Of a stretch of DNA of 35,473 nucleotides, positions 6,467-26,954 are shown piece after piece. The notes under the pieces were generated by a model. It saw only the letters and a list, made by a program, of their open reading frames with translations. It was not told the origin of the DNA and ran no database searches. Source of the DNA: an uncultured Selenomonadaceae bacterium. Lineage in GTDB: Bacteria > Bacillota > Negativicutes > Selenomonadales > Selenomonadaceae. The translations under genes and the position numbers were made by a program. Each line of letters begins with the position of its first letter. The stretch's first letter is position 1. Where the stretch lies: the NCBI GenBank assembly GCA_905234045.1, contig CAJOGS010000005.1:1-35473 (forward strand), given 5' to 3'.

Positions 6467-6529
6467 GTAGTGCGATAGTGCGATAGCTATAACACTAACA
6501 CACTATAACACTATCCAACTACCGCACTA
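6467..6529. repeat. 8-bp TAG/CTA tandem array at the stop of the DUF2314-like gene
   Basis: Read on the minus strand, TAG recurs exactly every 8 bp from the stop codon at 6529-6527: TAGTGCGG, TAGTTGGA, TAGTGTTA, TAGTGTGT, TAGTGTTA, then TAGCTATC. After this the unit switches to the opposite orientation (two CGCACTAY units). The first TAG is the stop codon itself. Confidence 0.85.
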
Positions 6530-7150
6530 ATGCCAAATTACCGCGCAAATATTTTCGCCGTTAAAATCGGCAACACCGAAATTAATTTTATCGCCGCTGT
6601 GAACGCCAAAATCCTGCTGTAATTCGTTTAAAAGCGTCCCTGTCAATAAATTACCCTCAACGCTCGTACAACGTACCCACGCCTGTTCAGGTTGCAAATT
6701 TTCGCCGTGAAAATAAACTGCCACATCGTCAGGAAAATTTGGATGGCGCAGGCTGTCAATCGTTTTAATGTAGCGTGTTTTTTCTTTGCCCTTATCGAAA
6801 GCGAAATTGTCTTCAAGAATTTTAATTTTGTCAGTGAAGGCGGAGGCGTATTTGTCAGGCAAAATTTTAATTTCAACGTCTTCAATTTCTGCGCGCCGAA
6901 ATGCAACAACTTTTTTGTAGCTTGCAGAAAAAACTTTGATTTTATCGCCGTCAATTTGCGCGCTTGCCAAAATTTTAAATTTAAATCCTGTTTCCTCGTC
7001 AATGTAGCCGTAAGTTAAAAAGCCGTCCATTTTCTCTTCAACGGGATAATCAAAAATATCGCGCAGATTTACCTTTGCAAGAATTTCTTCGCCTGTCAGC
7101 AGACAAATTTGTTTGTAAGTTTCACGGAAATTTGTTTCATATACTTTCAA
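6527..7150 (-). CDS. Unknown protein with DUF2314-like C-terminus
   Basis: This is a 207-residue soluble protein with no signal peptide. The C-terminal 60 residues (EQAWVRCTSVEGNLLTGTLL, then NELQQDFGVHSGDKINFGV) resemble the DUF2314 pattern of a W-V-x-V beta strand, G-x-L-x-N-E and a G-D-x-(I/V)-x-F end; I hold this loosely. The N-terminal 140 residues are not recognised. I chose TTG 7150 because GGAG lies 8 nt before it; the upstream GTG at 7186 has no ribosome site. It is divergent from engB with about 70 bp between. Its TAG stop is the first unit of an octamer array. Confidence 0.6.
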   Translation of the reverse strand: MKVYETNFRETYKQICLLTGEEILAKVNLRDIFDYPVEEKMDGFLTYGYIDEETGFKFKILASAQIDGDKIKVFSASYKKVVAFRRAEIEDVEIKILPDKYASAFTDKIKILEDNFAFDKGKEKTRYIKTIDSLRHPNFPDDVAVYFHGENLQPEQAWVRCTSVEGNLLTGTLLNELQQDFGVHSGDKINFGVADFNGENICAVIWH

Positions 7151-7200
7151 AATATCAGCTCCAAAATTTTTTTTAGATTGTAGCACAAGCCGCGCAAAAG

Positions 7201-7209
7201 TGCTATAAT
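7201..7209 (+). promoter_or_regulatory. Extended -10 promoter of engB
   Basis: TGCTATAAT is a perfect extended -10 (TG-n-TATAAT). No good -35 is present 17 nt upstream. Transcription should start near 7216, only about 3 nt before the engB ATG, and no ribosome site is present, so the message may be leaderless. Confidence 0.6.
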
Positions 7210-7218
7210 CGCCGCATT

Positions 7219-7839
7219 ATGGAAATTAAAATTATTAAAGCTGATTATATCGCATCAGCGGTAAAAAGTTCACAGTATCCCGAAGAAGTTTTGCCGGAAA
7301 TCGTTTTTATAGGGCGTTCAAATGTCGGCAAGTCTTCATTAATTAATTCTCTCTGCAACAGAAAAAATCTTGCGCGTACTTCGCAAGTGCCGGGTAAAAC
7401 TCAAACTATCAATTTTTACAAAGTTACTCTGAAAATTTTAACTGCCGACAATCTGACAATCTATCCATCTGTTCATCTGGTAGATTTGCCCGGCTACGGT
7501 TACGCCAAAACTTCAAAGACTAACCGCACTGTTTGGGCTAAATTTATTGACGAGTATTTGAAGAAAAGCCCGCAAATTAAATTTGTCTGTCAACTTGTCG
7601 ATATGCGCCACGCGCCTATGGATTCTGATTTGCAAATGTTTCAAAATATACTTGAAAAAAATTTGCCCGTACTGATTATCGCCACGAAGTCCGATAAACT
7701 TTCTAAAAATGAACGCGCAAAAAATTTAGCATTAATTAAAAAATCTTTCGCTATTGATGAATTGCCGATACTTCCTTACAGTTCCAAAAATTATGAAGGT
7801 ACTTCAGATTTGCTTGACGTTATTGCCGATTCTTTGTAA
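7219..7839 (+). CDS. engB: Ribosome biogenesis GTPase YsxC/EngB
   Basis: This 206-residue TRAFAC GTPase acts in large ribosomal subunit assembly. It shows G1 GRSNVGKSSLINSL (about residues 32-45), the switch segment TSQVPGKTQTINFY, G3 DLPGYGYAK, G4 TKSDKL and a G5 YSSKN. The length fits the family. There is no Shine-Dalgarno sequence; an extended -10 ends 9 nt before the ATG. It is followed after 50 nt, across a hairpin at 7843-7873, by the siroheme decarboxylase genes. Confidence 0.95.
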   Translation: MEIKIIKADYIASAVKSSQYPEEVLPEIVFIGRSNVGKSSLINSLCNRKNLARTSQVPGKTQTINFYKVTLKILTADNLTIYPSVHLVDLPGYGYAKTSKTNRTVWAKFIDEYLKKSPQIKFVCQLVDMRHAPMDSDLQMFQNILEKNLPVLIIATKSDKLSKNERAKNLALIKKSFAIDELPILPYSSKNYEGTSDLLDVIADSL

Positions 7840-7842
7840 AAT

Positions 7843-7873
7843 ATCTGAAATGAATACGTTTCATTTTTCAGAT
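7843..7873 (+). promoter_or_regulatory. Hairpin between engB and ahbA
   Basis: ATCTGAAA...TTTCAGAT, with additional pairing of TGAA to TTCA inside and a small bulge, forms a stem-loop. It ends directly before AAGGAG of ahbA. There is no clear T run after it, so it is more likely an RNA processing or translation-control element than a full terminator. Confidence 0.4.
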
Positions 7874-7889
7874 AAAGGAGAGTCAGACA

Positions 7890-8345: not shown

Positions 8346-8805
8346 AACCGACGAAGAAATTATCAAGGCGTTGCAGGAAGATTTTCCCTTGTGCGAGGAG
8401 CCTTATAAAGTTTTGGCGGAACGCGTAGGCGTAACCGAAGAAGAATTTTTACAGCGCGTTCAAAAATTTGTTGCAGAGAAAAAAATTCGCAAAATGGGCG
8501 CGGTACTTCGACACCGTGAAGTAGGATTTAAATTCAACGCGCTGTGTGCGTGGGAAGTGCCGCCTGAAAAATTGGACGACGTGGCAAAAATTATGTCGAA
8601 TCACCCTGCAGTTTCGCACTGCTACGACAGAAACACCGCGCCGAATTGGAATTATAATCTTTATACTATGATTCATGCCAAAACCCGCGAAGAGTGCGAC
8701 GCCATTATTTTAGAATTGGCGAAAATGGCGGGCATTGAAAATTATCAAGTGCTTTATTCAAAAAAAGAATGGAAAAAAACTTCCATGAAATATTTTAAAG
8801 ACTAG
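8323..8805 (+). CDS. ahbB: Siroheme decarboxylase subunit AhbB
   Basis: This 160-residue paralogue of the preceding gene has an N-terminal winged helix and a C-terminal AsnC-like domain. KMGAVLRHREVGFKFNALCA carries the conserved RHR-x-x-G-F signature of AhbB, and HPAVSHCYDRNTAPNWNYNL corresponds to the active-site loop. The start ATG 8323 lies inside ahbA with only a weak upstream AGAAG, which suggests translational coupling and a heterodimer. The TAG stop at 8803-8805 opens a heptamer TAG array. Confidence 0.82.
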   Translation: MCNSNLTKTDEEIIKALQEDFPLCEEPYKVLAERVGVTEEEFLQRVQKFVAEKKIRKMGAVLRHREVGFKFNALCAWEVPPEKLDDVAKIMSNHPAVSHCYDRNTAPNWNYNLYTMIHAKTREECDAIILELAKMAGIENYQVLYSKKEWKKTSMKYFKD

Positions 8806-8844
8806 GATTAAAGGGCTAGTGGTTAGTGGTTAGGTTTTAGAAGT
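8803..8844. repeat. 7-bp TAG tandem array at the ahbB stop
   Basis: TAG occurs at 8803 (the stop codon), 8817, 8824, 8831 and 8838. The 8810 unit is degenerate (AAAGGGC). This is an exact 7-bp phase over six units. Confidence 0.8.
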
Positions 8845-8968: not shown

Positions 8969-9010
8969 CTAATTACTAACAACTACAAAACTATACCACT
9001 ACCACACTAC
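8969..9010. repeat. CTA tandem array upstream of the MFS gene
   Basis: CTA occurs at 8969, 8976, 8983 (7-bp steps), then 8991, 8999 and 9007 (8-bp steps). This is the opposite orientation to the array at 8803-8844 and closes the same intergenic region. Confidence 0.75.
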
Positions 9011-9053
9011 ACGGATATTAGCTTTTAAATCTAAGAATAGGAGCAAAAATTTA

Positions 9054-10265: not shown

Positions 10266-10281
10266 TTTGCAAATTTCTTTA

Positions 10282-10990: not shown

Positions 10991-10996
10991 ATCTGT

Positions 10997-12986: not shown

Positions 12987-13978
12987 TGAATAAATTTAGT
13001 TGGCAAAATATTTTTGGTAACGCGCCGCGTATTGAGCATTTGAAAAAAATTTTGTCTGAAGAAAAATTTCCGCACGCTGTAATTTTTTCAGGCGTTGAAG
13101 GTATCGGCAAAAGAAAAATCGCCGAAATTTGCGCGGCGGCTTTACTTTGTGAAAATTCAAATGTTGAGGCTTGCGGCGTCTGTGAAAGTTGCCGAATGTT
13201 GGCGGCGGGCAGTCACCCTGATTTTTATATTGTGGAGCCGGAAAAATCTAAATCTGCGCCGAATATCAAAATTGGACAAATTCGCACTCTTCAAAATGAA
13301 GTTTCATTACAGCCGAATCATTCAAATTGCAGAGTTGTCATTATTGACGGCGCGGAACTGATGAACAACGCGGCGGCGAATTGTCTTTTGAAAACTTTGG
13401 AAGAACCGACGGGGCAAACGATTTTTATTTTGACTTCCGCCAATCGCGCAGGGCTTTTAATGACTTTGCGCTCACGTTGCGGCACGATTAATTTTGAAAA
13501 AATTTCATCGGAACAAATTCAAAATGCGTTGGAAATGCGCGGCGTTGAATCCGAACGCGCCGAAACTGTTTCACTGATTGCCGACGGCAGTTTTGGACGC
13601 GCTTTAAAATTGGAAGAATCAGGCGGCTATGAAATTCGTGAAGACGCCTTGAATTTTCTGGAAAATCTTTTGGCAAAAAAAATTACCGTCGAAGAAATTT
13701 TCAATCGCGGCAAAAATTTTTCTGACGGTTCAAGGGAAAATTTTTCTGACTTCGTTACATATATTCAAAAAATTCTGCGCGATGTTTTTTTACTCAATCA
13801 AGCCGAACTTTATAATTCTGATTTAAAATTGCGTCTTGAAAAATTTAAAATCTCGGAAAAAACTTTGTACGAACTTTTTGACGAAGGCAAAAAAATTCAG
13901 CGCAAACTTGCTTCAAATGCAAATCTGCGCCTTTTGGTTGAATCTTATTTTATAAAACTAAAACAAATTGCTGATTAG
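12986..13978 (+). CDS. holB: DNA polymerase III subunit delta'
   Basis: This 330-residue AAA+ clamp-loader subunit begins WQNIFGNAPRIEHLKKIL and has the P-loop SGVEGIGKRKIAE. A zinc finger of four cysteines follows (LCENSNVEACGVCESCRML), then the sensor region VVIIDGAELMNNAAANCLLK, TLEEPTGQTIFILTSA and RSRCGTINF. It helps load the beta clamp at the replication fork. The start is ATG 12986 in a TGATG overlap with yaaR; a GTG one codon earlier is possible. The TAG stop is the first unit of a heptamer array. Confidence 0.92.
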   Translation: MNKFSWQNIFGNAPRIEHLKKILSEEKFPHAVIFSGVEGIGKRKIAEICAAALLCENSNVEACGVCESCRMLAAGSHPDFYIVEPEKSKSAPNIKIGQIRTLQNEVSLQPNHSNCRVVIIDGAELMNNAAANCLLKTLEEPTGQTIFILTSANRAGLLMTLRSRCGTINFEKISSEQIQNALEMRGVESERAETVSLIADGSFGRALKLEESGGYEIREDALNFLENLLAKKITVEEIFNRGKNFSDGSRENFSDFVTYIQKILRDVFLLNQAELYNSDLKLRLEKFKISEKTLYELFDEGKKIQRKLASNANLRLLVESYFIKLKQIAD

Positions 13979-14044
13979 GCAGTAGGCAAGAGGCATTAGG
14001 CAGTAGTACTATCACACTACACCACTACCACACTACCCAACTAC
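13976..14044. repeat. TAG (7-bp) and CTA (8-bp) arrays abutting, after holB
   Basis: From the holB stop codon, TAG occurs at 13976, 13983, 13997 and 14004 (7-bp phase; the 13990 unit is GAGGCAT). The sequence then flips, and CTA occurs at 14009, 14017, 14025, 14033 and 14041 (exact 8-bp phase). The junction TAGTACTA is palindromic. No element lies between the two arrays here. Confidence 0.85.
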
Positions 14045-14058
14045 AAGAGGTGTAAATC

Positions 14059-14589
14059 ATGAAAAAACTTCTAAAAATCTTTGCAGTTATTGTATCGTTG
14101 CTGACAATTTCAATTTCGGCGGCGTCGGCAGAAAGTCCATATCCTGCCACTTTGGAAAATGGCGTTTTAATTTGTGTTGACGGCGGAATGGGCGTTGGTC
14201 GCTACGCTGATAAAGATTCTGTGAGCGTCGATAAATACGCGCCGCCTTTCTATGAACTTTCGATTGATATTTTTACAGTTAATTTTTCTGAAGAATATTG
14301 GAAAGAACACGGCAATTATATTTACAGTCCCTATAATATCAGTAATACTGTAAGATTGTATTTTCGATACAACTGGGATACAAAAACAATTTTCCATAAA
14401 CAAAACGACGTTTGGAAAGTTTGGGATTTAAACCGCCATTACAGCCACGCTGACGGCAACCCCTTAATCCCGTACGCCGCCGAAGTTGCATTTGTTTCGG
14501 CGTATCATATGAAATTTTTTGACGATAAAACAGGTTACGACGGTTACCGCGTAATTGACAAAGTTTTATATGACGCGCTCGGTATTTAG
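14059..14589 (+). CDS. Secreted protein of unknown function
   Basis: This 176-residue protein has a clear Sec signal peptide (MKKLLKIFAVIVSLLTISIS, with cleavage after ASA at residue 24) and no lipobox. The mature part is rich in aromatic residues (YELSIDIFTVNFSEEYWKEH; VRLYFRYNWDTKTIFHKQND) and ends AYHMKFFDDKTGYDGYRVID. It is probably periplasmic or secreted. I do not recognise the family. AGAGGTG precedes the ATG. Its TAG stop at 14587-14589 opens a heptamer array. Confidence 0.7.
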   Translation: MKKLLKIFAVIVSLLTISISAASAESPYPATLENGVLICVDGGMGVGRYADKDSVSVDKYAPPFYELSIDIFTVNFSEEYWKEHGNYIYSPYNISNTVRLYFRYNWDTKTIFHKQNDVWKVWDLNRHYSHADGNPLIPYAAEVAFVSAYHMKFFDDKTGYDGYRVIDKVLYDALGI

Positions 14590-14610
14590 GGGCTAAGGGC
14601 TAGAGACTAG
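14587..14610. repeat. 7-bp TAG array at the stop of the secreted protein
   Basis: TAG/TAA triplets occur at 14587 (the stop codon), 14594 (TAA), 14601 and 14608 in exact 7-bp phase. The last one is also the first triplet of the inverted end of the next repeat element. Confidence 0.8.
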
Positions 14611-14855
14611 GGCGTGTTGAAAAATTAAAAAATCCGCAAAGTGCGGACGGAAATTACTTGCTAAGGGCGTACGGTAACGTTCGTGCGACCAAAAGGAGCT
14701 TACCTACTAAGGGCGTGCGATAATCTAGCAGCTTTGCGGATTCGTTACCGTCTTTTCTTTTGGTACTTTTCTTTGGACGAGCAAAGAAAAGTACATTTAA
14801 ATAGAAAAAAATATCTGCAAATTAATCTTAAAATTGACTTTTTCAACACGCTCTA
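14608..14855. repeat. 248-bp inverted-end repeat element
   Basis: The left end TAGGGCGTGTTGAAAAA (14608) and the right end, read from the minus strand as TAGAGCGTGTTGAAAAA (from 14855), differ at one position. The interior has a perfect 13-bp hairpin at 14763-14794 (GTACTTTTCTTTG, loop GACGAG, complement). It also has AATCCGC / GCGGATT modules. There is no reading frame. Confidence 0.75.
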
Positions 14856-15122: not shown

Positions 15123-15164
15123 CTACCGAAAACTACCCAACTAACAACTAACCACTAGCCACTA
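15123..15164. repeat. CTA array at the stop of the OppF-type ATPase gene
   Basis: On the minus strand TAG recurs from the stop codon (15164-15162) in 7-bp steps (CTA at 15162, 15155, 15148, 15141), then at 15133 and 15123. It faces the 14587 array across the convergent intergenic region. Confidence 0.8.
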
Positions 15165-16109
15165 AACAGGATAATGACAGGCGATAAAATGATTTGGCTC
15201 GATTTCTTGAAAATCGGGCTTTTTTTGTTGGCAAAGTTCCTGACAATGCAAGCAACGATTTTGAAACGGGCAACCTTTGGGAATATCAAGCGGGCTGGGA
15301 ATATCGCCCGGCAAAATTTCAATATACTGATTTTTTTCTTGCTCGGTAGAAAAAACCGCTTTTAAAAGTGCTTGCGTATATGGATGCCGTGCGCCGTCCA
15401 ATTTATCGCCGTCCAGTTGCTCCATCATATTTCCCAAATACATTACGCAAATTCGGTGAGCAAACATATTCACCAACGCCATATCATGACAGATGAAAAT
15501 GTAGGTTATGCCCTTTTCCTGCTGAAGTTTTACCAAAAGTTTTATAATCGTGTCTTGAACAGAAACATCAAGCGCAGAAGTTGCCTCATCGCAGGCGATA
15601 ATTTCAGGCTGAAGTGCCAACGCCCGCGCTATTGCAACTCTTTGACGTTGCCCGCCGCTCATATTGTGCGGATAACGATTCACAAAGTCCGGCGGTAAAT
15701 CTACCTGCGCCAAAAGTTCCCGCGCTTTATTTTCCACTTCAGATTTTGAAATTAAATCAAAATTTAAAAGCGGCTCGCAGATAATATCTTTGATTTTCAT
15801 TTTTGGATTAAAAGCGGCGGTAGGGTCTTGAAAAACCATTTGAATATTTCTGTAATTTTGGCGTTTGTCTTCGCCGCTAAGTTGCGTTATATCCACGTCG
15901 TGAAAAATAATTTTGCCGCTTGTCGTTTTTTGCATATTCATAATAGTTTTTAACAGCGTAGTTTTTCCGCAACCACTTTCGCCGACAATGGCAACAGTTT
16001 CGCCGCGTCTGACATTGAAAGAAATATCATCACACGCGGTTAAAAATCTGCCGCCGCTTACAGGAAATTTTTTTGTCAAATGTTCAACGCGCAAAATTAT
16101 TTCAGACAT
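15162..16109 (-). CDS. ABC transporter ATP-binding protein, DppF/NikE type
   Basis: This 315-residue ATPase has Walker A GESGCGKT (residues 43-50), a Q-loop QDPTAAFNPKM, the signature MSGGQRQ (about 150-156) and Walker B IIACDE (170-175). A C-terminal oligopeptide-transporter domain (HPYTQALLKAVF) ends in a cysteine cluster, CPFQNRCLHCQELC. It powers a peptide/nickel-class importer on the inner membrane face. GGAGG lies 8 nt before ATG 16109, which overlaps the end of the partner ATPase by 8 nt. The TAG stop heads a CTA/TAG array. Confidence 0.9.
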   Translation of the reverse strand: MSEIILRVEHLTKKFPVSGGRFLTACDDISFNVRRGETVAIVGESGCGKTTLLKTIMNMQKTTSGKIIFHDVDITQLSGEDKRQNYRNIQMVFQDPTAAFNPKMKIKDIICEPLLNFDLISKSEVENKARELLAQVDLPPDFVNRYPHNMSGGQRQRVAIARALALQPEIIACDEATSALDVSVQDTIIKLLVKLQQEKGITYIFICHDMALVNMFAHRICVMYLGNMMEQLDGDKLDGARHPYTQALLKAVFSTEQEKNQYIEILPGDIPSPLDIPKGCPFQNRCLHCQELCQQKKPDFQEIEPNHFIACHYPV

Positions 16110-16893
16110 AGCGACGCCCTCCAATTTCCGGCACTGACTCCAATAAACTTTTCGTGTATTCGGCTTGAGGATTATTTAAAACATCGGCAGTTTTGCCGTA
16201 TTCGACAACTTTGCCTTGCGACATTACCATTAAATTATCTGAAAGGTAACTTGCAACGCCCAAATTGTGAGTAACCATAATCATTGCCGCGCCCGTGCCG
16301 CGTGTGATAAACATTAATTCGCCGACAATTTGCGCCTGTGTCGTAACGTCAAGCGCGCTTGTCGGTTCATCTGCCAATAATAATTTCGGCTGAAAAGTTA
16401 TCGCCATTGCAATTCCGACACGTTGACGCATACCGCCTGAAAGTTCAAATGTATAGGAGTTCATAATATTTTCGGGATTCGGTAAATTCATCAGTACCAA
16501 TTTTTCAATCGCCATATCATACGCGGCTTTTTTATCCAAATCGCTGTGAACTTGAATATATTCTACAAATTGTTTGCCGATCGTGTGTACAGGGTTCATC
16601 ATGTTGCCGCTGTCTTGAAAAATCATTGAAATATCTTTGCCGCGCAATTTCCGCCAGCCGTCGTTATCGAGTGCGCGCAGATTTTTATTTTCAAAAATCA
16701 TTTCGCCTTTTGAAACTTTGCCGCCGCCCGGTAAAACATTCAAAATCGCACGAATTACAGTAGTTTTGCCGCTACCGCTTTCGCCGACTATTGTTAAAAT
16801 TTCGCCTTCATTGAGTTCAAAATTTACGCCTTGAACCGTCGGCGCGGTACTTTTTGCGTATGAAATTTCTAAATCTGAAACTTTTAACAGCAT
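16102..16893 (-). CDS. ABC transporter ATP-binding protein, NikD/DppD type
   Basis: This 263-residue ATPase has Walker A GESGSGKT (37-44), the signature LSGGMRQ (151-157) and Walker B LLLADE (171-176). It is short and lacks the long C-terminal domain of DppD/OppD, as NikD does, which slightly favours a nickel/cobalt-type system. It starts 7 nt after the stop of the SHMT-like gene and overlaps the next ATPase by 8 nt, so the three are translationally coupled. The cognate permeases and binding protein are encoded farther upstream in the same direction. Confidence 0.9.
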   Translation of the reverse strand: MLLKVSDLEISYAKSTAPTVQGVNFELNEGEILTIVGESGSGKTTVIRAILNVLPGGGKVSKGEMIFENKNLRALDNDGWRKLRGKDISMIFQDSGNMMNPVHTIGKQFVEYIQVHSDLDKKAAYDMAIEKLVLMNLPNPENIMNSYTFELSGGMRQRVGIAMAITFQPKLLLADEPTSALDVTTQAQIVGELMFITRGTGAAMIMVTHNLGVASYLSDNLMVMSQGKVVEYGKTADVLNNPQAEYTKSLLESVPEIGGRRYV

Positions 16894-16899
16894 ATAAAA

Positions 16900-18186
16900 T
16901 CACATTCCATAGATCATACTTTTCATAATTAATTCGGCGTCGCGTTCGCGGATAATTTCTTCAGCCGGCAACCAGTCTTCAGAAAAGAGAGGCAAGCCTT
17001 CAATAATTTCTTTGACAACTTGTTCAACTTTTTTTATCGCCCTTGAATCTTGCGGCGATTTCAAAAATTCGCCCAATGTTGCGCCGACTCTAAATAAATC
17101 TTTTTCATTAAGTGCGCGGGTTGTCGGGTCTAAACTCGACAATCTCAAAATCGGATATGAAATATTTTCGTCGGAAGTCATAAGCGTTTCGGCTTTTACC
17201 AAAAGTCCCGCCTGTTCCAATTTTGCCGCAACTGATTTATTGTCAACATTTTCAGGCATTTTCGGCAATACCAAATGATTTTCAGTTTTCTTCCAGTAAG
17301 TTTCAATTCCCGCCGAATTTAAACCGTTTTCAAGGGCGCGGGCGTTGTCCATAACCGCCTGCGCGTATTCTTTAAATTCAGGACAAGAAACCTCGTTAAA
17401 AGTTATTGCCAACGCCGCCATAACATTTTTTTTCAGTGAGGCGTGTCCTGTTTCAATAACAGCTTTTTCCAACAAGTCGGCAAATTTTTTTCTGCATAAA
17501 ATAATGCCGCTTTGCGGACCGTGCAAGCCGTCACTTCCCGCAAAAGTTAAAATATCTGCATAAGGCACGGGCGAAGGGATTTTACCGGCGGCAACAAGTC
17601 CCGCGTTTTGTCCCAAATCTACCCAAAGAATTGCGCCGGATTCTTCCGCCATTTTTTGCATTTTCAAATAATCGATATTGTGCGGGTAATTCGTCGGCGA
17701 AAAAATTATCAACTTTGGTCTATTTTTCAACGCCAAATATTTTACATTTTCATAATTTAATCTCATATCGTGCGGATCAATCGCAAATTTTATGAAATTA
17801 TATTTCATCTGTTCGCCGGTGCAATGTTCTTTTTTGCGAAGGTTGAACGACAAAATAGTATCGCCTGTTTGAGCCAACGCCAATAAAACGACGCGCGATG
17901 CCGCAACAGGGTTACCCAATCTCAAAATTGCGTGTTCGGCGTTGAAAAGTTTGCAAGCGCGTTTAACTGCAAGCTGTTCAATTCGGCTGTAATGTTCCAG
18001 TGCGTTATGTCCGATGAAATCGTTGCCCAGCGCACCGCCTTTTAAATATTGAGACAACGGCGATGCCGCGCTGTCAGTCGGAATTAATGACAGCGTGGAA
18101 AGCTGTCTGTCCAGTGAAAATTTTAGAACTTCGCACAATTCGGGGTCAAATTTTTGCAGTTGCTTGAATAATTTATTGGTTGCCAT
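16900..18186 (-). CDS. Serine hydroxymethyltransferase-like protein lacking the PLP lysine
   Basis: This 428-residue protein is homologous to GlyA over its whole length: RQLSTLSLIPTDSAASPLSQ at the N-terminus, IEQLAVKRACKLFNAEHAIL, LWVDLGQNAGLVAAGKIPSP and EFKEYAQAVMDNARALENGL. In GlyA the PLP-binding motif is TTTTHKTLxGPRGG; here it is TFAGSDGLHGPQSG, so the Schiff-base lysine is Asp219 (codon GAC at 17532-17530). The PLP-stacking His near 121, Asp190 and a substrate-type Arg348 remain, but the His after VD is Gln193 and the YYGG loop is altered. Normal SHMT catalysis is unlikely. AAAGGAG precedes the ATG. It lies 6 nt upstream of the transporter ATPase genes. Confidence 0.85.
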   Translation of the reverse strand: MATNKLFKQLQKFDPELCEVLKFSLDRQLSTLSLIPTDSAASPLSQYLKGGALGNDFIGHNALEHYSRIEQLAVKRACKLFNAEHAILRLGNPVAASRVVLLALAQTGDTILSFNLRKKEHCTGEQMKYNFIKFAIDPHDMRLNYENVKYLALKNRPKLIIFSPTNYPHNIDYLKMQKMAEESGAILWVDLGQNAGLVAAGKIPSPVPYADILTFAGSDGLHGPQSGIILCRKKFADLLEKAVIETGHASLKKNVMAALAITFNEVSCPEFKEYAQAVMDNARALENGLNSAGIETYWKKTENHLVLPKMPENVDNKSVAAKLEQAGLLVKAETLMTSDENISYPILRLSSLDPTTRALNEKDLFRVGATLGEFLKSPQDSRAIKKVEQVVKEIIEGLPLFSEDWLPAEEIIRERDAELIMKSMIYGM

Positions 18187-18206: not shown

Positions 18207-18248
18207 TAGTGGCGTAGTTTCGTAGTCGGGTAGTGTGATAGTGATTAG
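18207..18248. repeat. 8-bp TAG array upstream of the SHMT-like gene
   Basis: TAG occurs at 18207, 18215, 18223, 18231 and 18239 (exact 8-bp phase) and at 18246. The last is the first triplet of the element end TAGGTGCTGTTGTAAAAA. Confidence 0.8.
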
Positions 18249-18626: not shown

Positions 18627-18656
18627 CTACCGCACTATCCCACTATCACACTACTA
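18627..18656. repeat. 8-bp CTA array at the GntP gene stop
   Basis: On the minus strand the stop TAG (18656-18654) is followed at once by a second TAG (CTA 18651), then by TAG every 8 bp (18643, 18635, 18627). It closes the intergenic region that the 18207 array opens. Confidence 0.8.
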
Positions 18657-20084
18657 CGCAATTCCTGTCAGCATATAAAACACGATGCACAGGAACGGTA
18701 TAAAAAATTTTATTCCCAGCAAAACAATAATATCAAAATAAGAGTCTTTGTGAGTAAGTCCGCAAATCGCCAAAAGTGTAACGAGTGCGCCGCAATGTGG
18801 CACGGGGTCAATACCGACTGACGCAATAGAAATTATTCTGTGCAACGCCTCCAGCGAAATTCCTTGAGCAGTCGCCATTTGTGCCCATTGTTCGCCGAGC
18901 ATTGAAAGTGCGATTGTCAAGCCGCCTGACGCCGAGCCGGTAATTCCGCACATTATATTTGTCGTGACAACCGCCGCAACCAAAGGTCCTGCACTTTCCG
19001 CAATTACTGTTAAAATCGCTTTTATTGGGAAAAATCCCGGCATTGTAACCATAACGCTGCCAAATGCAAATCCCGACGCTACATTTAAAACTGCCGCGCA
19101 ACTTGACGCCGCGCCAAAATTTATTGTTTCAAGTAAATTTTCTCTTTTGGAAGTGTAACGCTTGCGCCCGATATAAGCCGCCGCAAAACTGCTGATAATC
19201 AAGGCAACGCTGATTGACCAAATTGCTTGAACTTTGCTGACATTCGGAGTTATTAAACTTAAACCGAACGGGGCGAACGGCTCCAAACTGCTTTGGCTCC
19301 AATGAAAACCCCATGCCCAGTTGAAAGGATTACTCAAAATAATATTTATCACGATAACCATTAAAAGCGGAATTAGTGATGCTTGCCAACTCGGCAAAGT
19401 TCTGTCGCGTTGCTGTTTCTGTGCAATTTCGCCGCCGTAACCTTCGCCTTTGGCTTTTAAAGATTTTGCGCGGAATGAAAGCCAGCCCATTGCAGAGCCT
19501 AAAAATAAAACTGTGGCAAATAAACCGATTCCGACGCCCGCCCAAGTCGAAGTTCCGAAATATGACGACGGTATAATATTTTGAATTTGCGGAGTGCCGG
19601 GCAATGCGACCATTGCAAATGAAAAAATTCCTATCCACATTGTGGCAGGCAATAATTTTTTCGGTATGTCAGCTTTTCTGAAAATTTCCGCGCCGAACGG
19701 GTACATTACGAACGCTACAACAAAGACGCTCAAACCGCCGTAAGTCAAGGCGGCACAGCCTAAAATTACTGCCAATAATGCGCGTTGTTCGCCGAGCAAT
19801 GAAATTATTTTTCCTGCAATGGCGGACGCCAAGCCGCCTTTTTCCATTAATCTTGCGAATACCGCGCCGAATAAAAATACAGGGTAATAAGTTTTGGTGT
19901 ATTCAGCCAGCCGAGTCATGTAAAGTTCGGTATACGTCGGCATTATTCCAAATTCGCTGAGAATTGCTGCGATAATTGCAAAGAATGGCGCAATTAAAAT
20001 TATCGACCAGCCGCGATACGCCGCGAACATTAAGCCGATTATTGCTACGCCTATACAAAATGTATCCAAATATAAGACCACCAA
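18654..20084 (-). CDS. GntP-family permease
   Basis: This 476-residue hydrophobic protein with about 12-14 helices resembles gluconate/organic-anion:H+ symporters. LTYGGLSVFVVAFVMYPFGA, FSFAMVALPGTPQIQNIIPS and MCGITGSASGGLTIALSMLG are typical of the family, as is the late ASVGIDPVPHCGALVTLL. The substrate is unknown. The start is uncertain: TTG 20084, the adjacent GTG, or TTG 20069 after GGTGG are all possible, and no strong ribosome site is seen. It lies between the binding protein and the SHMT-like gene but is separated from both by repeat-filled gaps. Confidence 0.82.
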   Translation of the reverse strand: MVVLYLDTFCIGVAIIGLMFAAYRGWSIILIAPFFAIIAAILSEFGIMPTYTELYMTRLAEYTKTYYPVFLFGAVFARLMEKGGLASAIAGKIISLLGEQRALLAVILGCAALTYGGLSVFVVAFVMYPFGAEIFRKADIPKKLLPATMWIGIFSFAMVALPGTPQIQNIIPSSYFGTSTWAGVGIGLFATVLFLGSAMGWLSFRAKSLKAKGEGYGGEIAQKQQRDRTLPSWQASLIPLLMVIVINIILSNPFNWAWGFHWSQSSLEPFAPFGLSLITPNVSKVQAIWSISVALIISSFAAAYIGRKRYTSKRENLLETINFGAASSCAAVLNVASGFAFGSVMVTMPGFFPIKAILTVIAESAGPLVAAVVTTNIMCGITGSASGGLTIALSMLGEQWAQMATAQGISLEALHRIISIASVGIDPVPHCGALVTLLAICGLTHKDSYFDIIVLLGIKFFIPFLCIVFYMLTGIA

Positions 20085-20263: not shown

Positions 20264-20556
20264 TGTACTGTTGAATCAATCTGTTTTAAAATTTTTCTTG
20301 AATTATTTTAATTGAACGTACTTTTTCTTTGTCTTGTCAAAGAGCAAATCCTCCTACTCGTCGCCTTTGCAAGTACCAAAAAGAAATACGCTTATTGCGG
20401 TGCTGTTTTTTCGTCCTCGAAAAAAACGCACCTGCCTGCAAATGCGAGGAGTACGAGCATTTGCTCCGCACGTCCTGTGCGGCATCTTAGTTTTTCGCTC
20501 TCATCGAACAAAAATTTTTTCGCTATTTTTTTACAATAGTTTACCAACAGCCCCTA
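20264..20556. repeat. Inverted-end repeat element
   Basis: The left end GTACTGTTGAATCAATC (20265) and the right end, read on the minus strand as TAGGGGCTGTTGGTAAA (from 20556), are related variants of the family. The interior has CTTTTTCTTTG-TCTTGT-CAAAG, the CTCCTACTCGTCGCC module and the CCGCACGTCCTGTGCGG hairpin with GCATCTTAGTTTTTCG after it. That block is shared with 6305-6340. There is no reading frame. Confidence 0.65.
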
Positions 20557-20570
20557 GTCTCTAGCCCCTA
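20554..20570. repeat. 7-bp CTA array at the binding-protein stop
   Basis: CTA occurs at 20568 (the TAG stop on the minus strand), 20561 and 20554, in exact 7-bp phase. The third triplet is the first triplet of the adjoining element end. The unit content matches the array after the secreted protein at 14587. Confidence 0.75.
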
Positions 20571-22136
20571 TTTAGCAGGTTTAATCAAATTCGTAATCCA
20601 ATAGTAATCCGACGGGTACATTTTAACGCCGTCAACATATTTTGCATTGATGATATTTGTTTGAGGATAACCGAAGAATAAAGCCGCGCCGTCATTCAAA
20701 AGAATCTGTTGCAGTTCAATAATTAAATCGCGGCGTTTATCTTTGTCAAATTCCATTGAAAGTTGCTCAAGTTTTGCATCGTATTCGGGATTTGAATAAC
20801 CGCTGCCGTTTTGTTGGTTACTGCCGTCAACATTTGTTTGCCAGTACCAGCGCAAGAAAATTTCGGGGTCGCCTGTGTTCGCCGTCGTAATGTTTGAAAT
20901 AATCAAGTCGTATTCGCCTTTTATTCCCATGCTGTCAATCAAATTATAATCGACGGTGTTAATTTTTATGTCAAAGCCGAGTTTCTTTAAATCAGATTGA
21001 ACAGCCTCAGCATAAAGCGGCAATTCTGCGCGAGAATTATAAACTACAAAGTCAAGCGTTAAATTTTTGCCGTCTTTATCTAAAATTCCGTCACCGTCAG
21101 AATCTTTCCAGCCCGCCTCGTCAAGAAGTTTTTTGGCGCGTTCGGTATTGTAAGCATTTGGATCAGTCAACTTGTCAAAGCCGTAATCGAGGGACGGCGG
21201 CACGGGAGATTTACCGGGTATAAATGTACCTTTCAGCAAAATATTATTGTAAGTTTCTCTGTCGCAACCGCAAATTAACGCGGCACGAACTTTATCATCA
21301 CTCAAAATGTGGTCGGGATTTTGATTCAATCTTGCAAGTACAACGCGCAATGATGAAATTTCATCAACGTTGAATTTGTCATTATTTTTGAAAATATCAA
21401 TATCGCCCGCCGCAATATTAACGGCAACGTCAACATCGCCGGCTTGCAGAGCCATTGCGCGGGTATTCGGGTCATCAATCGAAGGAATTTCTACAGTTTG
21501 ATATGGAACTTCGCCGCCCCAGTAATTTTCATTTTTCTTCATAACGGCGCGTTCTTTAACGAAACTTTCAACAGTGTAAGGACCTGTACAAATTGGACCT
21601 TGTTTTGAAAAATCTCTGTCTTTTTCTGCGGCAACGTCAACGATTATGAAAAGCGGATCAGCCAAATAACCGGGCATACCGGGCAACGGCTTTTTAGTTT
21701 GGATAATTAAATTTTGTCCGTCCGCCGTGATTGATTCGTATTCAAAGAAAGTTTCAGCGCGGTTATTTTTTGCAAAGGCGCGCTCAATGGATTGTTTAAC
21801 GGCGTCGGCGGTAAGTGCGTCGCCGTTGGAAAATTTCACGTTGTCACGAATTTTGAAAGTCCACGTTAAATGATCGTCGCTGACATTCCAACTTTCGGCA
21901 AGCCATGGCTGAATGTTCATTTTTTCATCAAATTTGGTTAAACATTCGCCGAGACCGTAGCGCATAACTACCCAGCCGAAAAAGTTTTGCGTAGGTTCAA
22001 GCGTATCTGCAAAATTTGTAACGCCGACTTTTAAAACATTTGGGGCGCCGCCTTTTGCGTTATCGCCGCCGCAACCTGTAAATAACATTCCTGTTGCCGC
22101 TACTGCCGCCAAAAGTTTTTTCCATTTAAAAAGCAT
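20568..22136 (-). CDS. Extracellular solute-binding lipoprotein, family 5 (peptide/nickel type)
   Basis: This 522-residue lipoprotein (signal ending LFTGC, lipid Cys22) has the full SBP family 5 fold: LGECLTKFDEKMNIQPWLAE, SWNVSDDHLTWTFKIRDNVK, FSNGDALTADAVKQSIERA, TGPYTVESFVK and a DSDGDGILDKDGK loop. It would capture a peptide, metal or metal-chelate for the NikB/NikC-like permeases encoded at 23365-25136. GGAAG precedes the ATG. It is separated from those permeases by an opposing HsdR-N gene. The specificity cannot be told from the sequence. The TAG stop heads a heptamer array. Confidence 0.88.
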   Translation of the reverse strand: MLFKWKKLLAAVAATGMLFTGCGGDNAKGGAPNVLKVGVTNFADTLEPTQNFFGWVVMRYGLGECLTKFDEKMNIQPWLAESWNVSDDHLTWTFKIRDNVKFSNGDALTADAVKQSIERAFAKNNRAETFFEYESITADGQNLIIQTKKPLPGMPGYLADPLFIIVDVAAEKDRDFSKQGPICTGPYTVESFVKERAVMKKNENYWGGEVPYQTVEIPSIDDPNTRAMALQAGDVDVAVNIAAGDIDIFKNNDKFNVDEISSLRVVLARLNQNPDHILSDDKVRAALICGCDRETYNNILLKGTFIPGKSPVPPSLDYGFDKLTDPNAYNTERAKKLLDEAGWKDSDGDGILDKDGKNLTLDFVVYNSRAELPLYAEAVQSDLKKLGFDIKINTVDYNLIDSMGIKGEYDLIISNITTANTGDPEIFLRWYWQTNVDGSNQQNGSGYSNPEYDAKLEQLSMEFDKDKRRDLIIELQQILLNDGAALFFGYPQTNIINAKYVDGVKMYPSDYYWITNLIKPAK

Positions 22137-23368: not shown

Positions 23369-24183
23369 TTTTCTTGTCGCGGGTCTAAAACATCGCGCAG
23401 GGCATCGCCCCACAAATTAAATATCGCTACTACAATAAAAATTGCCATACCTGGATAAATCATCAGCCACGGCGCAGTTTGTATATATTGGCGTCCTTCG
23501 TTTAACATTAAGCCCCATTCAGGCGTCGGCGGTTGTGCGCCGAATCCCAAAAACGACAACCCCGCAATTTCCATCATCATTGTCCCGATATCCATTGCGC
23601 CCGTTATTACTACCATTGGCAAAACATTCGGCAGTATGTGCCGACGCAAAATATTTATTGTCTTCGTGCCGTTGACTTGTGCCGCAACTATAAAATCATT
23701 GTTACGCAATTTTATTACCAAACTGCGAACGAGCCGCGCATATTTCGCCCAGCCGACTATTAAAAGCGCAATGATTGTATTTGCGATTGAGCCGCCCAAA
23801 ATTCCGGCTATCGCTATTGCCAAAACGACGCCGGGAAATGATAACATCATGTCTGCAAGCCGCATTAAAAACATTTCGATTTTGCCGCCGAAATATCCCG
23901 ATGCAATTCCTACCACACAGCCGACAATCGCCAACAAAATTACAAGGCATATCGTCATAAACAGTGAAACTTGAGTACCTGCGATTATTCTTGAAAAAGT
24001 GTCGCGCCCCAATTTGTCAGTGCCGAGTAAATGCTCTGCCGACGGCGTTTGTAAAACATTTCTCATATTGCCGTCATACGGGTCTTGCGGCGCAAGGTAC
24101 GGCGCAAATATTGCCACGAACAATACCATAATTACCAGCAACGTATAAAATGAAAATAATTTGTGACTTTTTATAAATTCCAT
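23365..24183 (-). CDS. ABC transporter permease, NikC/DppC type
   Basis: This 272-residue protein has five to six helices, the N-terminal DPYDGNMRNVLQTPSAEHLL-GTDKLGRD segment of DppC/NikC proteins, and the EAA loop GLSFLGFGAQPPTPEWGLML that docks with the ATPase. The ATG overlaps the stop of the NikB-type gene (TAATG). It is the second gene after the cobalamin riboswitch. It ends convergently with the HsdR-N gene. Confidence 0.9.
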   Translation of the reverse strand: MEFIKSHKLFSFYTLLVIMVLFVAIFAPYLAPQDPYDGNMRNVLQTPSAEHLLGTDKLGRDTFSRIIAGTQVSLFMTICLVILLAIVGCVVGIASGYFGGKIEMFLMRLADMMLSFPGVVLAIAIAGILGGSIANTIIALLIVGWAKYARLVRSLVIKLRNNDFIVAAQVNGTKTINILRRHILPNVLPMVVITGAMDIGTMMMEIAGLSFLGFGAQPPTPEWGLMLNEGRQYIQTAPWLMIYPGMAIFIVVAIFNLWGDALRDVLDPRQEN

Positions 24184-25136
24184 TACTGCGCCGCTCCTTT
24201 TCTAAGTTTCGGATCTAAATAAGTGTAGGACAAATCTACCAAAAAATTTATAAACATGTAGGCAATGGCTATCCAAAGTACAAATCCTTCAATCAGCGGA
24301 TAATCTCTCATCATTATTGCGCGTACCGCCATATTTCCAATGCCCGGCCATGAAAAAACCATTTCAATAACTGCCACGCCGCCCAATAACCAGCCGATTG
24401 ACATTCCCAGTAATGTTATCAGCGGCAAAACTGCATTTGGCAAAATGTGTCGCCAAAGTATTCTGCTTTCACTCAAGCCGCGCGCCCGCGCTCCAATTAC
24501 GTAATCTTGATGCAGTTCGTCCAAAATTACCGTGCGAACTTGCCGTACATATTTTGTTGATTGATATATTGCCAAAGTTACCGCCGGCAAAATTACGCCG
24601 TTTAAAGTTACTGTTGAACTTGCTATCGGGAACCAGCCTAATTTTAAACCGAAAATGTACAGTAAAATTAATCCAAGCCAAAAATTCGGCATTGAAACGC
24701 CGATGAATGAAAAAAATCTAACCAAATAATCTTGCCACTTGTTTTGATTGACTGCTGACCAAATCCCCAGCGGCAATGATATTATCAGTACAAAAATTAT
24801 AGTTGTGAACGCCAAAAGTAACGTGCCGACGAATCCTTCAGAAAGTTTTTCAAATACAGGTTTTTTCGCCGAGTATGACATTCCCATATCGCCGTGCAAA
24901 ATTCCGACTACCCAGTTACCGTATTGCACTATGAAAGGTTTATCAAGTCCCAATTCTTCACGTGTTTTTTGTAAAGTTTCTTCAGAAACTATTGTGTCTG
25001 CAGACTCCAAAAGCATTGCAACGGGGTCGCCCGGGGCAAGGTACGCAAGGCAAAATGTTAAAAAACTTACGCCAATTAATGTTATCAGCATTTGCAGAAA
25101 TCTGTTTGCCAAACGATTCAATTTTTTCACCACCAA
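24183..25136 (-). CDS. ABC transporter permease, NikB/DppB type
   Basis: This 317-residue inner membrane permease has six helices. LTLIGVSFLTFCLAYLAPGD-like opening, ALQxxDYVIGARARGLSESR-type EAA region (here HQDYVIGARARGLSESRILW) and AVIEMVFSWPGIGNMAVRAI are characteristic. The start is TTG 25136 with AGGAA 7 nt upstream; the GTG next to it is possible. That ribosome site lies in a hairpin (25144-25162). The adenosylcobalamin riboswitch upstream indicates repression by B12, so cobalt or a cobalt-related compound is a reasonable substrate guess. Confidence 0.9.
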   Translation of the reverse strand: MVVKKLNRLANRFLQMLITLIGVSFLTFCLAYLAPGDPVAMLLESADTIVSEETLQKTREELGLDKPFIVQYGNWVVGILHGDMGMSYSAKKPVFEKLSEGFVGTLLLAFTTIIFVLIISLPLGIWSAVNQNKWQDYLVRFFSFIGVSMPNFWLGLILLYIFGLKLGWFPIASSTVTLNGVILPAVTLAIYQSTKYVRQVRTVILDELHQDYVIGARARGLSESRILWRHILPNAVLPLITLLGMSIGWLLGGVAVIEMVFSWPGIGNMAVRAIMMRDYPLIEGFVLWIAIAYMFINFLVDLSYTYLDPKLRKGAAQ

Positions 25137-25143
25137 AAAAAAA

Positions 25144-25162: not shown

Positions 25163-25170
25163 CAGATTAT

Positions 25171-25231
25171 TAGTGGAATAGTGCGGTAGTGTGATAGTTG
25201 GGTAGTTATTTGCTACAAAACTATCACACTA
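25171..25231. repeat. 8-bp TAG then CTA arrays inside the riboswitch leader
   Basis: TAG occurs at 25171, 25179, 25187, 25195 and 25203, then CTA at 25213, 25221 and 25229. Both are in exact 8-bp phase and inverted to each other. They lie between the aptamer and the permease gene, so they are transcribed as leader RNA that can pair with itself. Confidence 0.8.
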
Positions 25232-25268
25232 CAAAAATCTCCTCCCCATCACTCGCAGGTCAAACGGC

Positions 25269-25431
25269 GATTGTTAATTAGGCAATTCTCCTGGCTTCAG
25301 GTCTTCGCTCCTCTGCGCCTTCTCAAGTTTTCACTCAATGACATAATGCAGATTTGCTCGCTGTTACAGTGGCGGGACCGCTTCGGCTTGTACCGAATTC
25401 CTTATTGAGTCTTCCGACACCTAATCCAATC
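25269..25431 (-). ncRNA. Adenosylcobalamin (B12) riboswitch
   Basis: On the minus strand the aptamer has a closing P1 (GATTG / CAATC plus ATTAGG / CCTAAT), the P3 hairpin TTCGGTACAAGCCGAA, the core CGGTCCCGCCACTGTAA and the 3-prime B12 box AGCCAGGAGAATTGCCT (25296-25280). These match the conserved cobalamin riboswitch parts. It lies in the leader of the two permease genes, with a strong promoter just upstream. No classical terminator follows the aptamer, so control of translation is more likely than transcription termination. Confidence 0.9.
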
Positions 25432-25455
25432 AATATTCAATTTTCAATAGCTGAA

Positions 25456-25484
25456 ATTTTATCAGCCGCTTTAATCCTTGTCAA
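25456..25484 (-). promoter_or_regulatory. Promoter of the riboswitch-permease transcript
   Basis: On the minus strand a perfect TTGACA (25484-25479), a 17-nt spacer and TAAAAT (25461-25456) would start transcription near 25449, 18 nt before the aptamer P1. Confidence 0.8.
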
Positions 25485-25571
25485 CGCAATTTATATTGAA
25501 CTGCCAAAAAATTTTTTAAATTTATTATTAAATCAATCTTCAAAATTAATCAGTGAATTAAGCCGGAATTT

Positions 25572-26474
25572 TTATTTAAATGCAACTGCGCTGAATTTTT
25601 CAATCAATTTGACGGGGCGGTAAGATTCTTTGGCTTGTCGCAAGCCTTCAAGTCCCATATCTTCTTCACGGTTTATGTAAGTCATATTCGCCCATTCATT
25701 GGCGATAAAATTTTGATTAATGGCGGCATACGCGCCGCGAATTTCTGGATCAGCTTTTTCGACGTGTATAACGGCAGTATCTGAATTTAATTGTTCGCCG
25801 TATGAAAACGCTATAATTTTTCCGCCCAATGAAATTGCGCCGCCTTTGAGTTTGAAGTCGTCGAAGTTGTCAAAAATTTCATGAATCGCCGCCTGTTCGT
25901 AATAAAGAAATTCATCGTTAGGATTTTCGGCGCGGCGAATTTCATACCAATTAATTAAAACTTCTCGACACTGCGGAATAATTTCACAAGTTATGGGCAA
26001 ATATTCAGCCGTCGGATAATCTTTGTAAAATTGATTCAAATGATTTTTCTTGCCGTGAAATTTTCTGCCGGACAAATTTATTAAATCCTGCGCGAGGTAA
26101 ACATAATCAGAATTATCTCTGTCAGATGAAATTTCAAATTCGGCGTCTGGATATTTTGCCAATTCCTCAATAAAAAATTTTTCAAGTCCTGAAAAACGAA
26201 TTTCATTTTGCCCGCACGCTTGAAACATTTCAATAGTTTTAGAAATTGCGGCAGGAATTTTTTCAGGCTCACAGAGCGGCTGAAATGCCGAAAATTTGCC
26301 GTTCCACTCCGCGCAGATATAAATTATATCGTCGTCTATTGCCCAGCGCGTATTGCTCCAATTTCGCCACATATAAAGCCCCGTGAAACAGGCGTAGGCG
26401 TTTTCATAATAATTTTTTTTGTAAAATTTATCGAAAATCGGTTTATCTGCTTTTTCAAGTTTTTTAAAATTAAT
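25572..26474 (-). CDS. DUF2156 (phosphatidylglycerol lysyltransferase C-terminal-like) protein, ATT start
   Basis: This 300-residue protein has the double acyltransferase-like fold of DUF2156. DKPIFDKFYKKNYYENAYAC then TGLYMWRNWSNTRWAIDDDI form the usual N-terminus. YVYLAQDLINLSGRKFHGKK-NHLNQF and INREEDMGLEGLRQAKESYR match the conserved core and end. The first ATG (26372) would cut off 34 conserved residues. No ATG, GTG or TTG is in frame before it, but ATT at 26474-26472 lies 9 nt after AAGGAG. The frame is open from there, so initiation at ATT is likely. It follows the Asn-rich gene by 13 nt. Confidence 0.75.
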   Translation of the reverse strand: MNFKKLEKADKPIFDKFYKKNYYENAYACFTGLYMWRNWSNTRWAIDDDIIYICAEWNGKFSAFQPLCEPEKIPAAISKTIEMFQACGQNEIRFSGLEKFFIEELAKYPDAEFEISSDRDNSDYVYLAQDLINLSGRKFHGKKNHLNQFYKDYPTAEYLPITCEIIPQCREVLINWYEIRRAENPNDEFLYYEQAAIHEIFDNFDDFKLKGGAISLGGKIIAFSYGEQLNSDTAVIHVEKADPEIRGAYAAINQNFIANEWANMTYINREEDMGLEGLRQAKESYRPVKLIEKFSAVAFK

Positions 26475-26487
26475 GGTGTCCCTCTCC

Positions 26488-26748
26488 TTAATCTCCGTCG
26501 CCGCCGTCAGAATCTCCGCCGCCGTCGTCGTGGCTGTCGTAATCGTGATGACTGCTGTAACTGTTGGAGCTGTAATTGTTATTGTCGTAATTGTTATTGC
26601 CGTAATTGTTATTGTTGTAACTGTTTGAGTGGTAACTGCTGCTGTAATCGTCGTCGCTGTCGTAATCTCTGCCGCCGTTGTCGGAATTATAAGGGCGTCG
26701 CTGATTCGGTTGCTGATTCTGATTTAACGGTTGTCTAAAAATTCCCAT
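26488..26748 (-). CDS. Asn/Tyr/Ser/Asp-rich low-complexity repeat protein
   Basis: This 86-residue protein has no globular domain that I can see. The N-terminus is MGIFRQPLNQNQQPNQRRP. The middle has five-residue repeats of the form (N/G/D)NNNY, encoded by 15-bp tandem repeats at 26572-26616 with weaker flanking copies to about 26646. The end is Asp/Gly-rich with histidines (HHDYDSHDDGG), which might bind metal. GGGAG precedes the ATG by 9 nt. The TAA stop is part of the ribosome site of the DUF2156 gene, so the two are coupled. I do not recognise the family. Confidence 0.6.
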   Translation of the reverse strand: MGIFRQPLNQNQQPNQRRPYNSDNGGRDYDSDDDYSSSYHSNSYNNNNYGNNNYDNNNYSSNSYSSHHDYDSHDDGGGDSDGGDGD

Positions 26749-26769
26749 TGCTATTAGCTCCCTTCTTTG

Positions 26770-26793
26770 TAGTGGTTAGTTGTTAGTGGCTAG
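26770..26793. repeat. 7-bp TAG array upstream of the Asn-rich gene
   Basis: TAG occurs at 26770, 26777, 26784 and 26791, in exact 7-bp phase. Confidence 0.7.
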
Positions 26794-26796
26794 TTG

Positions 26797-26900
26797 AGTT
26801 GTGAAAAATGCTGACTAAGCACGAAAAATCAAAAAGCGTTTTTCTTTTTGTTACTTTTCTTTTTAAAAGAAAAGTAATTTTAATTAGGCAGTACTGATTA
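26797..26900. repeat. Short repeat element with a perfect palindrome
   Basis: This stretch contains the CTGACTAAGCACGAAAAATC module and a perfect 26-bp palindrome at 26851-26876 (TTACTTTTCTTTT and its complement). It lies between the TAG array at 26770 and the CTA array at 26904. Confidence 0.55.
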
Positions 26901-26903
26901 ACA

Positions 26904-26954
26904 CTACCCCACTACTCCACTACTCCACTACCCCACTACCACACTATAACACTA
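26904..26954. repeat. 8-bp CTA array next to the purL stop
   Basis: CTA occurs at 26904, 26912, 26920, 26928, 26936, 26944 and 26952: seven units in exact 8-bp phase. On the coding strand of purL the first TAG follows the TAA stop after one nucleotide. This is the longest regular array of the window. Confidence 0.85.

Follow-up and report, generated by a model that had tools for sequence, protein, structure and literature searches.

The question raised by a 35,473-nucleotide contig of an uncultured Selenomonadaceae bacterium (CAJOGS010000005.1 of assembly GCA_905234045.1, the whole of which is referred to here as the window) is why genes that end in TAG are so often followed by a tandem array in which TAG recurs every 7 or 8 bp, and whether such arrays serve translation or lie at stop codons for another reason. 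The arrays fill small intergenic gaps that extend from a stop codon to the ribosome-binding site of the following gene. We lean, though only slightly, toward reading them as the arms of a dispersed, non-coding intergenic element, satellite-like and resembling a miniature inverted-repeat transposable element (MITE), that would settle at TA or TAG and whose center would be renewed.

The window is one contig of a 2.66-Mb metagenome-assembled genome (MAG; 332 contigs, estimated to be 84% complete), which the relatives of its HolB, including a match named Quinella sp. 2Q5, place in the rumen Selenomonadaceae genus Quinella. Genome-scale counts were made in 763 kb of this genome and in 1.04 Mb of G050, the nearest relative with good synteny, whose PurL is 86% identical to that of the window genome. 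A chain was defined as at least three TAGs (or CTAs) spaced by 7 or 8 bp, TAG being fixed by the search. An autocorrelation scan of periods across species was dominated by 3-bp signals and is too blunt for comparing species. The published account of Quinella genomes (PMC9585023) does not mention intergenic repeats.

TAG Phasing and Its Relation to Stop Codons

The 763-kb sample contains 254 TAG chains, of which 13 are within open reading frames and 95% are intergenic; intergenic TAG or CTA chains of at least three number 233, as compared with 1.6 expected under a first-order Markov model. TAG triples with equal spacing number 201 for a spacing of 7 bp and 416 for 8 bp, as against 0–3 for 5, 6, 9, 10, and 11 bp; apart from the multiples 14 and 16, the counts peak only at 7 and 8 bp. 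In a scan of all 64 triplets, many long chains were found only for TAG/CTA and their shifted copies ACT/AGT. Chance is excluded as the source of the TAG phasing. A TAG lies at +7 or +8 past 69 of 131 TAG stops, 6 of 275 TAA stops, and 3 of 147 TGA stops, counts that favor the association of arrays with amber stops observed in a first-pass annotation of the window. In chains that include the stop, it is the first TAG 37 times, the second 19 times, and the third 3 times, whereas with a random frame the three positions would be equally frequent (p = 5e-6).

Organization of the Arrays

The arrays lie as inward-facing pairs, in the order TAG array, center, CTA array; neighbors in this order (TC) number 70 and those in the opposite order (CT) number 12. 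The center is 0–7 nt long, most commonly 0, 6, or 7 nt. Octamer units follow the rule TAGTKBKR, with a T after the TAG in 597 of 649 and with positions 5–8 nearly independent of each other. There are 78 different octamers and 71 heptamers, the distinct-unit fraction is 0.88, and no two arrays are identical among those compared; the earlier remark that TAG and phase stay constant as the units vary is correct, and holds more strongly than was stated. The two arms differ in sub-dialect, position 7 being G on one and T on the other (r = -0.60, 41 loci), and the center is oriented with respect to them, in the order G arm, TAAAAA or YAAATTA, T arm. The orientation of the element relative to genes is random. 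Broken octamer anchors (13; n = 308) read CAG in 7 cases, TAT in 4, TGG in 1, and TTG in 1, and in no case TAA or TGA; broken heptamer anchors read TAA in 5 of 12 and TTA in 3.

Repeats of this kind could in principle arise by satellite-like growth alone, in which replication slippage by 7 or 8 nt from a stop-codon seed, followed by mutation of the units, would suffice with no insertion. According to literature cited in PMC4679880, slippage in bacteria commonly involves heptamers, and neighboring units are somewhat alike, agreeing at 53% of variable positions as compared with 47%. However, the units are nearly independent, identical neighbors amounting to 10% as against 4% expected for independent draws, and facing inverted arms with different sub-dialects are not produced in this way. 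Together with sites in G050 that are empty of any seed array (see below), these features make growth by slippage an unlikely explanation.

The pairing of the arms also suggests an RNA hairpin or terminator maintained by selection, and 7 of 8 tested pairs fold better than dinucleotide shuffles. This stability comes, however, from the TAGT/ACTA anchors alone, as arms swapped between loci fold equally well (-25.4, as compared with -24.3 for arms of the same locus; S.D. 0.7). Facing units match at only 38% of variable positions, as compared with 46% for arms of different loci, covariation between the arms is lacking, and the arms are widely unequal in length (for example, 4 and 18 anchors), all of which makes a selected hairpin very unlikely.

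Nested Elements and Turnover of the Center

Some heptamer arrays run directly into the ends of a MITE family, in the arrangement TAG-N-GCGTGTTGAA...TTCAACACGC-N-CTA. These nested GCGTGTTGAA elements are ~200–480 bp long, with paired ends 145–672 bp apart, and they have the terminal inverted repeats and TA-type flanks of MITEs, TA preceding 69 of 78 end cores. A TAG is located at -7 or -8 from 32 of 145 ends, and always at -7 in the 30 cases listed. When the arrays themselves are considered as MITEs, there are empty sites and one possible TAGGA duplication, at ahbB, yet the copies are never identical.

Another repeat, with flanks CGAAGCAAAAG and AACCGTCCGCACTTTGCGG, holds arrays inside it, and 11 of its 13 candidate copies were compared. 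Identity among the left flanks is 88%; some copies have an octameric core and others a heptameric one. The fraction of paired units that are identical falls from 0.49–0.65 for the outermost units to 0.05–0.10 for the innermost. Outer units are kept and inner units are replaced, which indicates that turnover takes place at the center.

Comparison with Relatives

The heptamer TAG class is present in 52 of 60 Quinella genomes, with species-specific units that include TAGGAAT, TAGCTGT, TAGGGAC, TAGTGAG, and others. The octamer class is essentially confined to the window genome (1192 pattern hits) and the close species G050 (167) and G041 (52). None of 20 other Selenomonadaceae genomes has more than one heptamer match; such matches are numerous in a few genomes from other parts of the class. 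By far the highest count in the genus, ~2,565 matches to a four-anchor heptamer pattern, is that of species G067. Three genomes from another genus of the same class (G132, G145, and G177; family f15, genus g42) carry TAG heptamer arrays with words of their own (TAGTGACTAGAGAC, TAGCAGATAGCCGA).

Among 94 gaps orthologous between the window genome and G050, 26 have arrays only in the window genome, with median lengths of 230 and 100 bp, respectively, and the clean empty gaps in G050 are 12–15 bp long where the window genome has arrays. A gain in the reverse direction is seen at locus L048 4167, at which the window genome has a TAA stop that overlaps the start of the next gene and G050 has a TAG and an array. 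Other G050 gaps have the same array layout in a different dialect; one gap of 94 bp in both genomes contains octamers in the window genome and TAGGT/CAGGT heptamers in G050. Shared arrays differ unit by unit, which is not remarkable in itself because the two genomes are 60% identical at four-fold sites. G050 also has non-TAG arrays, of AGG, CAGG, and GGTTCCA types, in the same gaps. Its gaps orthologous to L040 10089, L043 4111, and L037 13172 contain period-7 AGG or GGTTCCA arrays, with words such as AGGAAAG AGGATAA AGGAGGA and GGTTCCAGGGTTCCA. The layout is therefore not tied to TAG.

These comparisons bear on the possibility that a nucleoid or regulatory protein recognizes TAGT at intervals of 7–8 bp and that its binding would select for TAGT. 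Such a role would fit the invariance of TAGT in units that are otherwise degenerate, and similar paired sites in Geobacter metallireducens have been proposed to be IHF/HU sites (PMC2700814). Selection by a bound protein nevertheless seems distinctly improbable, as the placement of the arrays is unrelated to promoters or gene orientation, the units and classes are species-specific, and orthologous gaps are empty in G050.

Origin of the TAG Stops

Stops were compared in 175 reciprocal-best orthologues of the window genome and G050. For genes that have a TAG and an array, the G050 stop is TAG in 14 of 32, TAA in 15, and TGA in 3, whereas for TAA and TGA genes it is TAG in 12 of 125. Where the stop is at the first position of the array and the C terminus is unchanged, G050 has TAG in 7 of 11 as compared with a background of 4 of 59, and the TAG is therefore often older than the present array content. 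Where the stop is at the second or a later position, the C terminus is changed in 6 of 8, which is what a stop supplied by the array would lead one to expect. In view of the small counts and the similar conservation of ordinary TAG stops that lack arrays (TAG kept in G050 in 6 of 18), these results exclude a wholesale supply of TAG by arrays but are not proof of targeting. TAG represents 24% of stops in the window genome and 15% in G050, falling to 13% and 11% when array-bearing genes are removed; arrays therefore also add TAG stops. A genome-wide bias in stop codons can thus stem from repeat invasion as opposed to translation.

The first-pass annotation viewed the arrays as an all-frame stop cassette, in which TAGs at 7 or 8 bp would be selected as a trap for ribosomes that slip or read through the stop. 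It is in keeping with this that 53% of TAG stops open an array, but on fuller weighing the sole point in its favor is a roughly 2-fold excess of TAG arrays near 3' gene ends (83 of 397) over 5' ends (39 of 399), which is likewise expected if start regions are less tolerant of insertions. If stops were under selection, TAA and TGA should appear among the broken anchors, and neither does among the 13 octamer cases. Arrays also lie upstream of starts and inside MITEs, they are randomly oriented relative to genes, TAA and TGA stops are seldom followed by TAG at +7 or +8, and G050 uses non-TAG arrays in the same gaps. The cassette is not borne out by these observations and must be considered extremely unlikely. 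The other suggestion made at that stage, that mobile-element ends target stop codons, fares better, in that heptamer arrays abut MITE ends and first-position stops are often already TAG in G050.

Proposed Mechanism

The MITE-like element that we tentatively prefer would consist of a TAG array, a center of 0–7 nt, and a CTA array, often nested with the MITE family bounded by TAG...CTA, and would insert or nucleate at TA or TAG. An existing TAG stop would be retained as the outermost anchor, a TAA stop would be converted into TAG, and, where an array runs past the end of a gene, one of its units would provide the stop. The center may be renewed by recombination or template switching among the hundreds of dispersed arrays with a common TAGT register, and such renewal would give rise to species-specific dialects. 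Because insertion into genes is usually harmful and the gaps are tiny, a tolerated TA(G) would often be a stop codon; given these limits on landing sites, the link with TAG stops would be a by-product and not a translation device. Support for this proposal comes from the inward pairs with short centers, the random orientation relative to genes combined with an oriented center, the empty gaps in G050, the gain at L048 4167, the orthologous gaps of like layout but different dialect, the excess of TAG in G050 among first-position stops with unchanged C termini, the replacement of inner units between conserved outer ones, the species-specific units of the genus, and the heptamer arrays that abut MITEs. 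Several points weigh against it: no transposase or recombinase was identified as the agent, a target-site duplication is present at best once (TAGGA at ahbB), and the arrays are never identical, unlike the copies of an active transposon. In addition, drift and exchange alone do not account for the invariance of TAG(T) alongside free positions 5–8, which might be due to a recognizing protein or to a need for homology in exchange, and, as G050 often has arrays of its own, a shared TAG may partly reflect an ancestral array and not a bare stop.

It is also conceivable, but rather improbable, that the arrays are written and not copied, by a process that often starts at TAG stops, keeps rewriting the center, and draws each unit almost independently from a degenerate rule, which would be TAGT-K-B-G-R for one arm and TAGT-K-B-T-R for the other. 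Each Quinella species would then have a dialect of its own and no two arrays would be alike. Two candidate writers were rejected: the Y1 transposase of REP (repetitive extragenic palindromic) elements, RAYT, as PF01797 is absent from the incomplete MAGs of the array-bearing G050, G041, G065, G067, and G015, and a reverse transcriptase such as that of a diversity-generating retroelement, as PF00078 is absent from those of G050, G002, G065, and G015, also incomplete. Footprints of transposon excision (TA plus 5–6 nt) were considered as a source of units; the keto-rich strand asymmetry weighs against palindromic footprints. Carriage by phages was likewise rejected, as the TAGT octamer arrays of viral contigs are mostly plain microsatellites, with a facing partner in 3 of 153. 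In one contig from a viral database (L239, 7672-7760), degenerate arrays with TAGTC words are paired in the same way.

Relation to Known Repeats

Cyanobacterial short tandemly repeated repetitive (STRR) heptamers are dispersed short heptamer arrays of unknown function. The Quinella arrays do not consist of a fixed heptamer repeated head to tail, as is evident from the numbers of different units and the distinct-unit fraction given above. In the nested elements, inverted ends (NGCGTGTTGAA) lie next to TA(G), as in MITEs of IS630/Tc1-like or IS5-like target preference, whereas the arrays have neither fixed ends nor identical copies. REP elements and bacterial interspersed mosaic elements (BIME), which are mobilized by RAYT Y1 transposases, are similarly dispersed, intergenic, imperfectly palindromic, and multi-copy, but the Quinella arrays have no conserved hairpin, and the presence of Y1 transposases does not track array content.

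PMC2700814 describes paired tandem octamers and heptamers in G. metallireducens, designated putative "global regulator binding sites" of classes 1–3, and also TWGTTGAY octamers. Like the Quinella arrays, these are degenerate tandem 7/8-mers in many intergenic copies, mostly paired on opposite strands (in Quinella, by the neighbor counts above) at variable distances; the insertion sequences near them are counted as a further likeness. However, their consensus sequences (GTTGCTYN, TCTCCGTS, and MTYCTGA) are not TAG-anchored and are not matched by TAGTKBKR, which TWGTTGAY overlaps only partly. The TAACTGA direct repeats of Beggiatoaceae and cyanobacteria, as described in PMC4679880, are also intergenic heptamers with a patchy distribution among lineages, whose forward copies give stops in three frames and some of which overlap the stop of the upstream gene. 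They have one fixed unit and lie mostly toward start codons, whereas the Quinella arrays are paired inward and have degenerate units of 7 or 8 bp that are anchored on TAG; TAACTGA is not among the Quinella array unit lists. In the parts consulted, neither report describes stop-codon phasing at such a scale, arm dialects, or turnover from the center outward.

Short degenerate heptamer and octamer arrays have been reported in several bacterial groups, and their origin and role are unexplained. Quinella is a tractable case, having dozens of species with dialects, empty and filled gaps, a two-arm grammar, and an order of renewal, so that the generating process is directly testable by strain comparison.

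Features of the Window

The seven TAG stops named in the first-pass annotation are all real. Its statement that each opens an array holds for five (6527, 13976, 14587, 15162, and 20568), from which the array runs in phase, but is imperfect for the other two: the next TAG after 8803 is 14 bp on, corresponding to one missing anchor, and 18654 adjoins a chain that is 3 bp out of phase. The array at 6527 is composed of octamers, and at 14587 the second unit is TAA. CTA arrays do close most of the same gaps, and purL is indeed exceptional among TAA genes, its stop lying within the array unit TAGTTAAG. However, arrays are not restricted to stop codons, as several are upstream of gene starts (8969-9011, 14009-14045, 18207-18248, and 25171-25231). 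The features are as follows.

6468-6486, plus strand: octamer TAG array with 3 anchors
6487-6529, minus strand: octamer TAG array (CTA on the plus strand) with 6 anchors, the outermost TAG being the stop of gene 6527-7186(-)
8803-8840, plus strand: stop of the ahbB-like gene (TAG, 8803-8805) and, beyond one missing anchor, a heptamer TAG array that starts at 8817
8969-9011, minus strand: CTA array that precedes the MFS gene at 9054 and changes from heptamers to octamers
13976-14006, plus strand: heptamer TAG array from the holB stop (TAGGCAG units)
14009-14045, minus strand: octamer CTA array facing the holB array, upstream of gene 14059
14587-14609, plus strand: heptamer array from a TAG stop (TAGGGGC TAAGGGC TAGAGAC TAG), running into a MITE end
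14607-14854, no strand assigned: MITE of 248 bp with inverted ends TAGGGCGTGTTGAA ... TTCAACACGCTCTA
15133-15164, minus strand: CTA array up to the TAG stop of gene 15162-16124(-)
18207-18248, plus strand: octamer TAG array that precedes the start of gene 16900-18186(-) and leads into a MITE-type end (TAGGTGCTGTTG)
18627-18656, minus strand: octamer CTA array directly adjoining the stop (TAG) of gene 18654-20084(-), with a phase offset of 3 bp
20554-20570, minus strand: heptamer array that opens at the stop (TAG) of gene 20568-22136(-) and is followed by a MITE-type end (TAGGGGCTGTTGG)
25171-25205, plus strand: octamer TAG array in the leader of gene 24183-25136(-)
25213-25231, minus strand: CTA array facing 25171-25205, with the center TTATTTG
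26770-26795, plus strand: heptamer TAG array in the gap downstream of purL
26904-26962, minus strand: octamer CTA array with 8 anchors, overlapping the purL stop (TAA inside the unit)

The G050 orthologue of gene 6527-7186(-) has a TAA stop one codon earlier, and that of gene 15162-16124(-) also ends in TAA. Its ahbB has a TAG stop and an entire gap of only 12 bp (GATTAGGAGAAAAAATTAATG); its holB likewise ends in TAG, followed by a 15-bp gap with no array. The counterpart of the stop at 14587 is a TAG followed by different heptamers, and that of gene 20568-22136(-) is the same TAG stop with a CAGG-type heptamer array.

Within the leader of gene 24183-25136(-), the array pair at 25171-25231 separates a cobalamin riboswitch (25264-25439) from the terminator-like hairpin of the riboswitch. 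In its place G050 has a short ACACGC...GCGTGT hairpin, and the pair may have replaced part of the riboswitch expression platform. Elsewhere in the window, positions 2206-2529 contain a complete MITE of the GCGTGTTGAA family with no adjoining TAG array.

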